NCBI RefSeq assembly: GCF_000767055.1
Contig: NZ_CP006764.1
Span: 1,488,001-1,552,000, forward strand
DNA: 64,000 nt
DNA from: Corynebacterium doosanense CAU 212 = DSM 45436
GTDB lineage: Bacteria > Actinomycetota > Actinomycetes > Mycobacteriales > Mycobacteriaceae
Direction of reading: 5' to 3'
In this document: positions 34,068-37,132 of the stretch, in pieces
Numbering within the stretch: position 1 is the first letter of the stretch
Layout: each line of letters opens with the position of its first letter
Notes under the pieces: generated by a model
The model's input: only the letters and a program-made list of their open reading frames with translations
Database searches by the model: none
What the model was told of the DNA's origin: nothing
Program-made: the position numbers and the translations under genes

Positions 34068-34724
34068 CTAGCGGGTGGCCAGCTCGCGAAGCTTGGCGAT
34101 CGCCGCCGCCGGGTCGCCGAACTTGTACACCGCAGAACCGGCGACGAAGGCGTCCACGCCGGCCTCGGCGGCCTGCGCAATGGTGTCGGCGCTGATGCCG
34201 CCGTCGATCTCGATGATCACGTCGAGGTTGTTCTCGTCGATGTACGTGCGCAGCGTGCGCACCTTGTCCAGCTGCTCCGGCATGAAGGACTGCCCGCCGA
34301 AACCGGGTTCCACACTCATGACCAGCACCTGGTCGAACTCGGCGAGATCCTCGAGGTAGGGCTCGATCTGGGTGCCGGGCTTGACGCTGAACGCGGCCTT
34401 GGCAGCGAGCCCGCGGATCTTCCTCGCCAGCGCGACGTGGTCCTCGGTGGCCTCGATGTGGAACGTGATGATGTCCCCGCCCGCATCGATGTACTGCTCG
34501 ACCCACTGCTCGGGATTCTCGATCATGAGATGAATATCCAGCGTCTGATCAGACAGGCGGTTGACCGTCTCGGTGATCGAGGGGCCGAAGGACAGGTTGG
34601 GCACAAAATGCCCGTCCATGATGTCCACGTGAATGCCGTCGGCGGTGGCGATCGCGGCGATCTCCTCCCCGAGTCGGGCGAAGTCGGCGTTGAGGATCGA
34701 GGGGAAGATGAGCGGTGCTGACAT
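34068..34724 (-). CDS. rpe: Ribulose-phosphate 3-epimerase
   Basis: 218-residue TIM-barrel metalloenzyme interconverting ribulose 5-phosphate and xylulose 5-phosphate. Motifs: FPSILNADFARLGEE, HVDIMDGHFVPNLSFGP, VEPGFGGQSFMPEQL and IDGGIS. ATG at 34724 is preferred over in-frame starts upstream because of homology and because TAGTCT (34737-34732) lies seven bases before it, implying a leaderless transcript that runs into the rib genes. Ribulose 5-phosphate is also the RibBA substrate. Confidence 0.95.
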   Translation of the reverse strand: MSAPLIFPSILNADFARLGEEIAAIATADGIHVDIMDGHFVPNLSFGPSITETVNRLSDQTLDIHLMIENPEQWVEQYIDAGGDIITFHIEATEDHVALARKIRGLAAKAAFSVKPGTQIEPYLEDLAEFDQVLVMSVEPGFGGQSFMPEQLDKVRTLRTYIDENNLDVIIEIDGGISADTIAQAAEAGVDAFVAGSAVYKFGDPAAAIAKLRELATR

Positions 34725-34761
34725 GCCCCTCAGACTACCGCGTCGTGGTTCAATGAGTGCC

Positions 34762-35505
34762 ATGTCTGCAGACCTCGTGTCCACACTTGTCGACGGCTCC
34801 GTCGCCACCCTCACCCTCACCCGCGACCACAAACGCAACGCACTGGATCAGGACATGTGCCGCGCCATCGACGCCGCCCTCGACGAAGTTGTCGACGCCG
34901 GCGCCCGAGCCATCGTCATCACCGGCGACGGAAGCGCCTTCTGCGCCGGCGCAGACCTCGGCGGCGGCGTCTACGCCGACGGCTTCTTCGACGCCCTGTT
35001 CTCCATGCTCGGCCACATTCAGCGCGTGCCCGCCGTGGTCATCGGCGCCATCAACGGCCCGGCCGTCGGCGCCGGAACCCAGCTGGCCATGGCCTGCGAC
35101 CTGCGCGTCGTCGCCGATTCCGCCTACTTCCGCGTTCCGGTGGTCGACGTCGCGATCGCCCTCGACGACGTCACCGTGCGCTCGTTGGAACGCCTTGTCG
35201 GCGGCGCCCGCGCGCGAACGATGCTGCTCACCGGCGCGACGCTGTCTTCCGAGGAAGCAGTAACGTGCGGGTTTGCCGCGATGTCGGGGACGCTTGACGA
35301 CGCCCTGGCCCTCGCCTCCGTCTGCGCCACCAAAGCCCCACTGACCATCCGCAACCTCAAGGCCGAATTCGCCTGGGGCGGCTACCGCCCGTTCAGCGAC
35401 GAGGAGCGGCAGGAATTCCAGCTCGCGGCGTGGAACTCGGAGGACGTGCAGGAGGCGCGGGCCGCGCGTTCGGAGAAGCGGGAGGCCGAGTTTCGGGGGC
35501 GGTAG
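34762..35505 (+). CDS. EchA6-like non-catalytic enoyl-CoA hydratase family protein
   Basis: 247-residue crotonase-fold protein. The CoA/oxyanion loops are intact (SAFCAGADLGGG near 58-69, GAINGPAVGAGTQLAMACD near 95-113), but both catalytic glutamates of active hydratases are absent: Gln107 lies where Glu144 of rat hydratase would be, and P126-V127 replaces the PE motif. Pattern and C-terminal WNSEDVQEARAARSEKRE strongly resemble mycobacterial EchA6, an acyl-CoA binding protein linked to mycolic acid synthesis. An ATG three codons upstream is an alternative start. It points against the flanking operons and is followed by nested palindromes. Confidence 0.82.
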   Translation: MSADLVSTLVDGSVATLTLTRDHKRNALDQDMCRAIDAALDEVVDAGARAIVITGDGSAFCAGADLGGGVYADGFFDALFSMLGHIQRVPAVVIGAINGPAVGAGTQLAMACDLRVVADSAYFRVPVVDVAIALDDVTVRSLERLVGGARARTMLLTGATLSSEEAVTCGFAAMSGTLDDALALASVCATKAPLTIRNLKAEFAWGGYRPFSDEERQEFQLAAWNSEDVQEARAARSEKREAEFRGR

Positions 35506-35518
35506 CGGACGGGCCGTT

Positions 35519-35578
35519 ACTAACTCCACCCAAACTCAGCTCGAGCGGTCAATTTTAGCTCGATTGGGTGGAGTTAGT
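35519..35578. repeat. Palindrome 1: 15-bp inverted repeat
   Basis: Arms ACTAACTCCACCCAA (35519-35533) and TTGGGTGGAGTTAGT (35564-35578) are perfect complements around 30 bases; inside, TCGAGC (35541-35546) can pair with GCTCGA (35558-35563). It lies 13 bases after the echA-like stop codon. No T-run follows either arm. Confidence 0.9.
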
Positions 35579-35588
35579 GCACACCGAG

Positions 35589-35612
35589 GGGAGTCCACAC
35601 GTGTGGACTCCC
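35589..35612. repeat. Palindrome 2: 24-bp perfect palindrome
   Basis: Twelve-base half GGGAGTCCACAC followed immediately by its complement. The inner 18 bases (35592-35609 without the outer GGG/CCC) are identical to palindrome 4 at 35703-35720. Confidence 0.92.
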
Positions 35613-35682
35613 GCCGTTCTAGCCACTCACAAACTACCGTCAAACCACCGAATTTCGTTGGTTTGTGAGTGCTCCGAACGGC
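35613..35682. repeat. Palindrome 3: 70-base interrupted inverted repeat
   Basis: Outer arms GCCGTTC (35613-35619) and GAACGGC (35676-35682); inner arms CACTCACAAAC (35624-35634) and GTTTGTGAGTG (35661-35671), with four-base internal loops between them. A competing inner hairpin joins CAAACCA (35641-35647) to TGGTTTG (35659-35665) around CGA-ATT-TCG, so two folds exclude each other. Confidence 0.88.
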
Positions 35683-35702
35683 CCCCAATACCTGTCCCCG
35701 CC

Positions 35703-35720
35703 AGTCCACACGTGTGGACT
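35703..35720. repeat. Palindrome 4: 18-bp palindrome, copy of palindrome 2 core
   Basis: AGTCCACAC followed by GTGTGGACT. It ends two bases before the rsmB stop codon (35723) and repeats the core of palindrome 2, so the two copies bracket palindrome 3. Confidence 0.92.
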
Positions 35721-35722
35721 TC

Positions 35723-37132
35723 CTACCCCCTCCGCAGCACCGCGAAGAACATTGCGTCCGTGCCGTGACGGTGCGGCCACATCTGCACGCTGAGCTCCTC
35801 GCCCGTGTCGGACATGCCCGGGACCAGCGCGTGCGCGTCCTCCTCCACCGCACCGAGTTCACGCACCGCACGATCCACCACCCCGCGGGTCTCCCGCACA
35901 TCGGGTGAACACGTGGAGTACACAACCACGCCGCCCGGCTTCACCAGGGACAGCGCCGAGCGCAGCAGCTCGAACTGCAACACATTCAACGAAGCGAGGG
36001 CGGCGTCGGTCTTTCGCCAACGGGCTTCGGGCCTGCGCCGAAGGGCGCCGAGGCCGGAGCAGGGGGCGTCGAGAAGCACACGATCGAAGCCGGGCTCCAG
36101 GCCCGGGTCGCGGCCGTCGGCGACGTGGATCGTCACGGGGAGGCCGACGACGGACTTCCGAATGAGTTCGGCGCGGTGCTCGGAGATTTCGACGGCGTCG
36201 ATGTGCGCGCCGTCGATACGCGCGAGCGAGCCCATGAGCGCGGCCTTACCGCCGGGGCCGGCCGCGAGGTCGAGCCAGCGGCCCTGGTCATCCGCGACGG
36301 GGGCCTCGACGACCGCGCGGGCGATGAGCTGGGAGCCCTCGTCCTGCACGCCGGCCAGCCGGTCGCGCACGGGCTCGAGCTGGCCGGGGTCGCCGCCGTC
36401 GAGGTAGACGGCGTAGGGCGAGTACTGGCCCTCATCGCCGCCGACCGACAGAGCGAGTTCCTCAGCGGAGATCTCTCCAGGCCGGGCCACGAGGTGCACC
36501 TTGGGGCGTTCCGAGTCGGCCTCGAGCGCGGGGAGTAGCTCGTCGGCGGGCAGCACCTGGAAAAAGGACTCGGCGATCCACGTGGGGTGCGCGGTCTGGA
36601 AGGCGGCCGCCGCGATGGGGTCTGCGGGGGTCAGCTTCTCCAACAGGTCCGGAGAGCGCGTGATGGTACGCAGAATCCCGTTGGTGAAGCCCTTGGCGTG
36701 CTCCATCCCCGCGGCCTCGACGAGGCGGACGGAGGTGTCCACGGCCGCGTGGTCCTCGACGCGGGTGTAGAGCAGCTGGTAGGCGCCGAGGCGCAATGCG
36801 TCGAGCACCTCCGGCGCGATGTCGCTGAGCGGGCGCGAAGAGCATTCGGCGATGACGGCGTCGAGCACGCCGGAGACGCGCAGCGTGCCGTAGGTGAGCT
36901 CGGTGGCGAAGGCCGCGTCACGCTCGGTGATGCGGCGCTGCTTGAGCAGGCCCGGCAGCGTGAGGTTGGCGTAGGCGTCGTCCGAACTCACCCGGCGCAG
37001 CGTGTCGTAGGCCGTCTGGCGCGCGGCGTCGATGCCCGGAACGGGTCGGAACTGTTCCTCCCGGCGTTTGACCTGCTTCTTCGGCGCGGGTTTGTCGCTG
37101 CCCCTGGACCTGGACCTGAATCCGCCGCTCAT
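35723..37132 (-). CDS. rsmB: 16S rRNA m5C967 methyltransferase (RsmB/Fmu)
   Basis: 469-residue protein with an N-terminal NusB-like RNA-binding domain (about 28-165) and a C-terminal SAM methyltransferase. SAM motif [16 protein letters not shown] near 291; catalytic cysteines in [18 protein letters not shown] and VVYSTCSPD. The first 25 residues are Arg/Lys rich ([18 protein letters not shown]). It overlaps fmt by four bases. Confidence 0.95.

Follow-up and report, generated by a model that had tools for sequence, protein, structure and literature searches.

In Corynebacterium doosanense CAU 212 = DSM 45436, the 217 bp that separate the stop codon of the EchA6-like gene from that of rsmB form a mosaic made up of four solo palindromic repeats. 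These belong to three dispersed families and constitute a REPIN-like pile-up, the genes linked to it being predicted to encode nucleases of two families, DUF222-like HNH and DUF559-type. The link to these nucleases goes beyond what had been proposed in the first-pass annotation of the window, i.e., the whole 64,000-nucleotide stretch of contig NZ_CP006764.1 that was analysed. It is moderately probable that the block is an array of non-autonomous repeats that HNH and DUF559 nucleases would recognise and help to spread. The system is best read as REPIN/RAYT-like, with an HNH or DUF559 nuclease in the role of RAYT. The repeats are likely selfish and spread by nucleases because they are dispersed and two of the three families bracket predicted nuclease genes.

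The block (35506..35722 of the window) is flanked on the left by the EchA6-like ORF, of enoyl-CoA hydratase type (34633..35505, + strand, ECH_1 match; the start is that of the longest listed ORF and the true start may lie downstream), and on the right by the convergent rsmB ORF (35723..37132, - strand, Methyltr_RsmB-F and NusB matches). All four palindromes that had been described there were found again, and so were the borders of their cluster, 13 bases past the stop at 35505 and 2 bases short of the convergent ORF end at 35723. IR1 (35516..35581) is a 66-bp element with perfect 15-bp arms (35519-35533/35564-35578) and a 30-base interior. Palindrome 2 (35589..35612) is perfect over 24 bp and contains the core GTCCACACGTGTGGAC at 35593-35608, which it has in common with the 18-bp palindrome 4 (35703..35720; core at 35704-35719). 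Between them lies IR3 (35613..35682), a two-tier inverted repeat with 27-base arms that are 78% complementary, inner arms CACTCACAAAC (35624-35634) and GTTTGTGAGTG (35661-35671), outer arms CCGTTCT (35614-35620) and CGAACGG (35675-35681) with one mismatch, and the competing inner pair (35641-35652/35654-35665) expected from the alternative fold that had been claimed for it. A tail motif of the GAYAGRWA type, GACAGGTATT, is present on the - strand at 35687..35696. The block has a GC content of 57.1% vs 68.8% and 70.6% in the two flanking genes, in agreement with the initial description, and values as low occur in 0.56% of the window's 217-bp stretches. At the inverted-repeat background of 25 per 100 kb (perfect arms of at least 10 and at most 60 bases between them, counted in 464 kb of the genome, window included), about 0.05 would be expected in 200 bp vs the three found in the block (arms 15, 12, and 11). 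No Rfam match over the gathering score was obtained in 35300-35900 (best 22.5 bits, gathering 57) and blastn of the block against a plasmid collection gave no match.

The 2.70-Mb genome holds 29 exact sites, 13 of the core GTCCACACGTGTGGAC and 16 of its sister core GTCCAGACGTCTGGAC; when up to two mismatches are allowed the core has 40 sites vs 4 for the reversed control. Neither exact core occurs in the 241 congeners searched, so that the search which the first-pass annotation had proposed for the core of palindromes 2 and 4 and for the 15-bp arms revealed both to be dispersed in the host and absent from those genomes. IR1 is present in six copies with terminal inverted repeats of 12-18 bp, a MITE feature, in which 12 bp are identical in all copies, while the interior (30 bases in five copies, 31 in one) varies in sequence; it was not found in the 241 congeners. 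Scanning the GTDB species collection, which may leave out this genome, gave one IR1 match, in a Bacteroidia MAG; it has a 16-base interior and was taken as chance. Relatives of IR3 are located at C1:14.7k, 1570k (two), 1599k (three), and 2057k (two). All three families are absent from the congeners searched, bar one unlike IR3-type match, a CTCACAAAC/GTTTGTGAG repeat in genome G036 that was set aside as chance or analogy since its outer arms are others than those of IR3. In G036, a very long inverted repeat between convergent ORFs (L082:1470-1590) shares CTCACAAACCC of its inner arms with IR3-type repeats, its outer arms being unlike theirs.

The order IR1, palindrome, IR3, palindrome is seen again at C1:1599k, with the palindrome-IR3 part in tandem and the exact palindromes 197 bp apart. 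A GAYAGRWA tail lies at most 22 bases to one side of 11 of the 29 exact palindrome sites, compared with 57 of 40,000 random positions. These recurring cores, arms, order, and tails make the copies look copied, not evolved singly. A predicted gene 3' end is at most 31 bp away from 14 of the 15 core loci of this genome, six of these 14 being in short convergent gaps, and the exception is the C1:1599k array. Gene ends were called with a crude ORF picker; it misjudged the left gene in the window, for which the gap was taken from the ORF list, and the row for L251, with wrong bounds, was not used in the counts. Pairing of mirrored bases in the IR1 interiors exceeds that of shuffles (45/90, P 0.008); no RNA function is claimed for IR1 because its single folds are not clearly more stable than shuffles (z -1.92 to 0.74). 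An in-frame IR1 in the cytochrome-b-like ORF at C1:2362410, considered as an insertion into a gene, was rejected as the catalogue protein P0069 starts within IR1.

The genome encodes five DUF222-like HNH genes. HNH#1 (C1:466k), with DUF222 (PF02720) and HNH (PF01844) both over the Pfam cut-offs, carries GTCCAGACGTCTGGAC within its 3' coding end, HNH#2 (C1:7.8k) lies between near-identical 20-bp palindromes, and HNH#3 (C1:210k) has ACTATGCCGTGGCATAGT upstream, a palindrome that is also arrayed at C1:2142k; as proteins, HNH#2 and HNH#3 exceed the cut-off for HNH and score 22.2 and 19.8 bits for DUF222 (cut-off 24.4). HNH#4 (C1:1321552-1322862) contains one-mismatch versions of the window's 16-bp palindrome in both coding ends, and HNH#5 (C1:395k) has no palindrome of at least 14 bp; in these two, HNH only is over the cut-off. 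The HNH#1-#4 proteins are mutually 40-59% identical. Solo GTCCAGAC sites cluster around HNH#1 (median 107 kb, P 0.0003), and the same holds for solo GTCCACAC sites and HNH#4 (median 201 kb, P 0.012); neither set clusters around the gene of the other (P 0.76 and 0.92). Site positions were merged loci and the C1:2142k array was counted in both variants. No HNH gene was found beside gyrB in the 13 congeners with gyrB detected (first 15 kb of 20 congeners), and in genomes G013 and G217 gyrB abuts the gene that in C. doosanense lies beyond HNH#2. An ORF with an rve integrase core and a transposase-type HTH (L025:2165-3292, C1:467.7-468.8k) lies end to end with HNH#1.

Across the genus, such HNH and DUF559-type genes are linked with such repeats. 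HNH genes of the DUF222-like kind occur in 69 of 242 genomes, this one included (E <=1e-30). The end windows of 44 of these genes (57.2 kb) hold 31 perfect palindromes of at least 16 bp, where 4.7 would be expected at the rate of this genome and 2.4 at that of genome G075, and the middles of the same genes hold none. Twenty-three of the 44 have such a palindrome at an end, the same one at both ends in five cases, and 21 are without, as are most of the more distant genes (L189-L201). The set includes 16 genes added by choice (12 paralogues from G104, G204, G240, and G232, and four of the own genes) and leaves out L173 and L188, which lie at contig edges, of 30 HNH loci; the strict count misses imperfect copies at the own HNH#3, HNH#4, and the 5' side of HNH#2. 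In 17 of 27 HNH genes the centre of the palindrome is CACGTG or CAGCTG. Moreover, divergence of the HNH protein correlates with divergence of the palindrome; the first test omitted three genes having unlike palindromes and assumed the outer bases of L260 and L262, and a repeat used the real letters, without and with these three genes.

A palindrome family defined by GTSCGCAGCTGCGSAC is present in 18 of the 242 genomes (reversed control 0), of which 13 are HNH-positive, including all nine with 4-25 copies; five genomes without an HNH gene have 1-3 copies and 56 HNH-positive genomes lack the family. The association is significant by Fisher tests uncorrected for phylogeny (P 8e-5 and 8e-6). In G075, all six solo GTCC sites that were listed are no farther than 140 kb from the HNH gene (the list covered 16 of 23 places, and the two sites that flank the gene were left out of the test). 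The conclusion that G075 had no analogous family, drawn from an inverted-repeat word scan of a 400-kb sample, was discarded as the scan was too insensitive: a targeted pattern has 23 sites in this genome, five of them inside the same sample.

The second kind of nuclease is linked to repeats with long interiors. A gene at C1:809894-810823 has an IR1 copy on either side (C1:809792-809845 and 810831-810884); its product matches DUF559 over the Pfam cut-off and AbiEi_4 just below it, and is the only match to the DUF559 model in this genome at E 0.001. IR1 copies do not cluster (P 0.62). A second DUF559-type homologue, 38% identical to the bracketed gene (C1:2030746-2031639), is followed on its 3' side by two tandem CCTACCGAA repeats with a 28-base interior (L251, reverse-complement positions 2813-2981), which constitute a separate family. 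Homologues of the bracketed nuclease are encoded in 121 of 242 genomes (E 1e-10), and an inverted repeat with an 18-36-base interior was detected within 450 bp of 14 out of 27 DUF559-type genes, some of the 14 being near-duplicates from sister species (27 of 30 loci were used, those at contig edges being left out). The density of such repeats near the genes is 0.74 per kb vs 0.065 and 0.04 in genome samples, with 0.175 per kb in the remainder of the same loci. Upstream of DUF559-type genes, CTAACAACTCC is repeated in tandem three times in G217 and twice in G013 (L230, L232), a place where the turnover of repeats might be followed. No linked gene emerged when a few neighbours of IR3 were scanned with Pfam; by likeness alone, IR3 may be assigned to a lost or undetected DUF559-type nuclease because its long-interior architecture resembles that of the DUF559-linked repeats.

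The block was probably gained. Among 40 relatives in which RsmB was searched besides the own genome, the best match (72% identity) is that of G076, where the EchA6-like gene and rsmB are also convergent and their stop codons abut (L087), compared with 217 bp between them in C. doosanense. An EchA6-like match adjoins rsmB only in the own genome, G076, and G075 (30 loci compared), and since in G075 a further ORF separates the two genes, the direction of change is read from G076 alone; confidence in the mechanism is slightly lower for this reason. Between the sister species G013 and G217 (83-91% identity over matched stretches), palindrome number is equal in four of five comparable stretches and 2 vs 3 in the other, three more stretches having no counterpart in the pieces compared. 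These counts fit slow turnover.

A clue to how the palindromes may be read comes from the HNH protein, the N-terminal domain of which models as a ParB/Noc DNA-binding domain in the predicted structure. In the HNH protein the match begins at residue 23-30, vs 118-141 in the ten best ParB/Noc/Spo0J chains, leaving no room for the N-terminal part of ParB/Noc as only about 25 residues precede the domain; accordingly, a CTP-binding domain ahead of the HTH is absent. The parS site spans about 16 bp with the centre CACGTG, and the sites associated with the HNH genes are likewise palindromes of about 16 bp, often CACGTG-centred; they differ in being lineage-specific and scattered, and the protein in having an HNH domain after the predicted DNA-binding fold. 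The palindromic nature of parS is documented in the accessible part of PMC5815017. Based on this model, a dimer of the HNH protein would read the palindrome through its ParB/Noc-like helix-turn-helix domain and the predicted HNH domain would then act on the DNA at that site. Repair or strand transfer after a nick or cut might produce new copies, first near the gene and later farther off, and copies would persist best in gaps behind stop codons, piling into mosaics such as the window block. Recognition and dispersal of the repeats by the nucleases are inferred.

The same domain also speaks for an alternative in which a ParB/Noc-like protein uses the palindromes as fixed operator or nucleation sites, in autoregulation or nucleoid organisation; selection would keep the sites, and HNH would have a secondary role. 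The location of the palindrome 128-144 bp ahead of the start of the ParB/Noc-like domain in eight HNH loci, the frequent CACGTG or CAGCTG centre, and the conservation of most sites between sister species are in line with this proposal. Nevertheless, palindromes can be found at both gene ends, the core loci of this genome lie near gene 3' ends, not promoters, the sequence-coupled tails and tandem arrays suggest copying, the same gap in G076 is devoid of palindromes, and the DUF559-linked families would be left unexplained, all of which makes fixed sites unlikely. Nothing directly supports the nucleoid- or replication-associated cruciform considered in the first-pass annotation, although a role in the nucleoid is conceivable in view of the predicted ParB/Noc-like domain.

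It is still less likely that the block is a compound bidirectional terminator in which convergent hairpins end the ech and rsmB transcripts. This proposal draws on the 3'-end location of the core loci and on a family copy at C1:459963 that forms a perfect hairpin followed by TTTTT. The window block contains no such hairpin with a T-run, and neither T-run terminator-like sites nor sigma-70-like sites were detected in 34500-36800, in keeping with the earlier remark that simple intrinsic terminators are insufficient. Moreover, termination would not account for 29 identical cores, the bracketing of nuclease genes, the arrays, or the tails. Within the nuclease-driven reading, the window repeats would form 3' hairpins on both transcripts that may aid termination or RNA stability, so that a terminator effect is plausible as a by-product of their location.

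That the repeats are MITE-type debris which one of the genome's conventional IS transposases mobilises in trans seems very improbable. With its terminal inverted repeats and variable interior, IR1 does look like a tiny element, and an ORF with transposase-type domains adjoins HNH#1, but no target duplications were seen by eye at the window copies, RAYT is not matched in the genome, and the gene bracketed by IR1 has nuclease, not transposase, domains.

Of the options raised at the outset, the REP/MITE-like mobile palindrome is the one supported, by the recurrence of cores and arms throughout the genome and by the absence of the block from the abutting gene pair of G076, but the repeats are not classical REPs: the Y1 transposase RAYT (PF01797) had no match in this genome at E 0.001, the control being positive in five of 14 genomes. 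IS200/IS605-type elements have hairpin ends and the HNH protein IscB as an accessory; C. doosanense differs in being without a Y1 transposase match. The accessible sections of PMC3116915 describe REP/REPIN sequences as short extragenic palindromes with several families per genome, each with its own (RAYT) gene, and report clusters beside the gene, mosaics, tandem arrays, non-autonomous copies, and a proposed co-evolution of gene and repeat. The palindromes studied here are likewise multicopy and extragenic, with a few copies within HNH coding ends, and the IR1 and palindrome families, IR3 not, are each tied to a gene of their own with copies beside it. They differ in that the linked genes encode DUF222-like HNH and DUF559-type nucleases, in that the HNH palindromes are often perfect over at least 16 bp and share the centres noted above, and in that they can occupy both gene ends, sometimes inside the coding ends. 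Like the DUF222/REP13E12 ('13E12') genes, the HNH genes are multicopy in an actinobacterium and HNH#1 combines DUF222 with HNH, whereas HNH#2-#3 fall below the DUF222 cut-off and HNH#4-#5 have HNH only. REP13E12/HNH endonuclease/DUF222 were grouped among repetitive elements (PMC10589994), the REP13E12 regions of Mycobacterium tuberculosis have no defined biological function according to a 2026 preprint (PMC13061034), and no link to palindromes is stated in the accessible parts of either source. Stem-loop families were surveyed in 2008 across 40 bacterial genomes, C. diphtheriae among them, and the available portion of that paper names no nuclease (PMC2267715). No description of a link between palindromes and HNH, DUF222, or DUF559 was found in the literature, as far as partial texts and a thin coverage of subscription journals allow.

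A broader proposal is more tentative: two unrelated nuclease families, DUF222-type HNH with a ParB-like reader and AbiEi-DUF559-type, would each drive selfish palindromes, lineage-specific palindromes would be copied and re-specified by co-evolution of reader and site, and the window block would represent a pile-up of three systems in a single safe gap. If this is true, these HNH and DUF559 proteins acquire a role and a testable DNA target, REPIN/RAYT gains unrelated counterparts, and recognition can be studied on a natural series of readers, each with its matched palindrome.

Other repeats were observed in this genome. Three 33-bp repeats GTCCAGACGTCTGGACTG..GGCGATAGAAAC with a spacing of 76-77 bp (C1:492022-492207, L026) are CRISPR-like at first sight, a reading that was dropped since solo copies and variants do not fit it. 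A tandem array of ACTATGCCGTGGCATAGT, GTCCACACGYGTGGAC, and GTCCAGACGTCTGGAC palindromes occupies a convergent gap at C1:2142248-2142990 (L022), and a terminator-like 26-bp palindrome, AAAAAGTGCGCACGTGCGCACTTTTT, at C1:234.8k (L118:4834) is close to the GTGCGCAGCTGCGCAC palindromes of other species.
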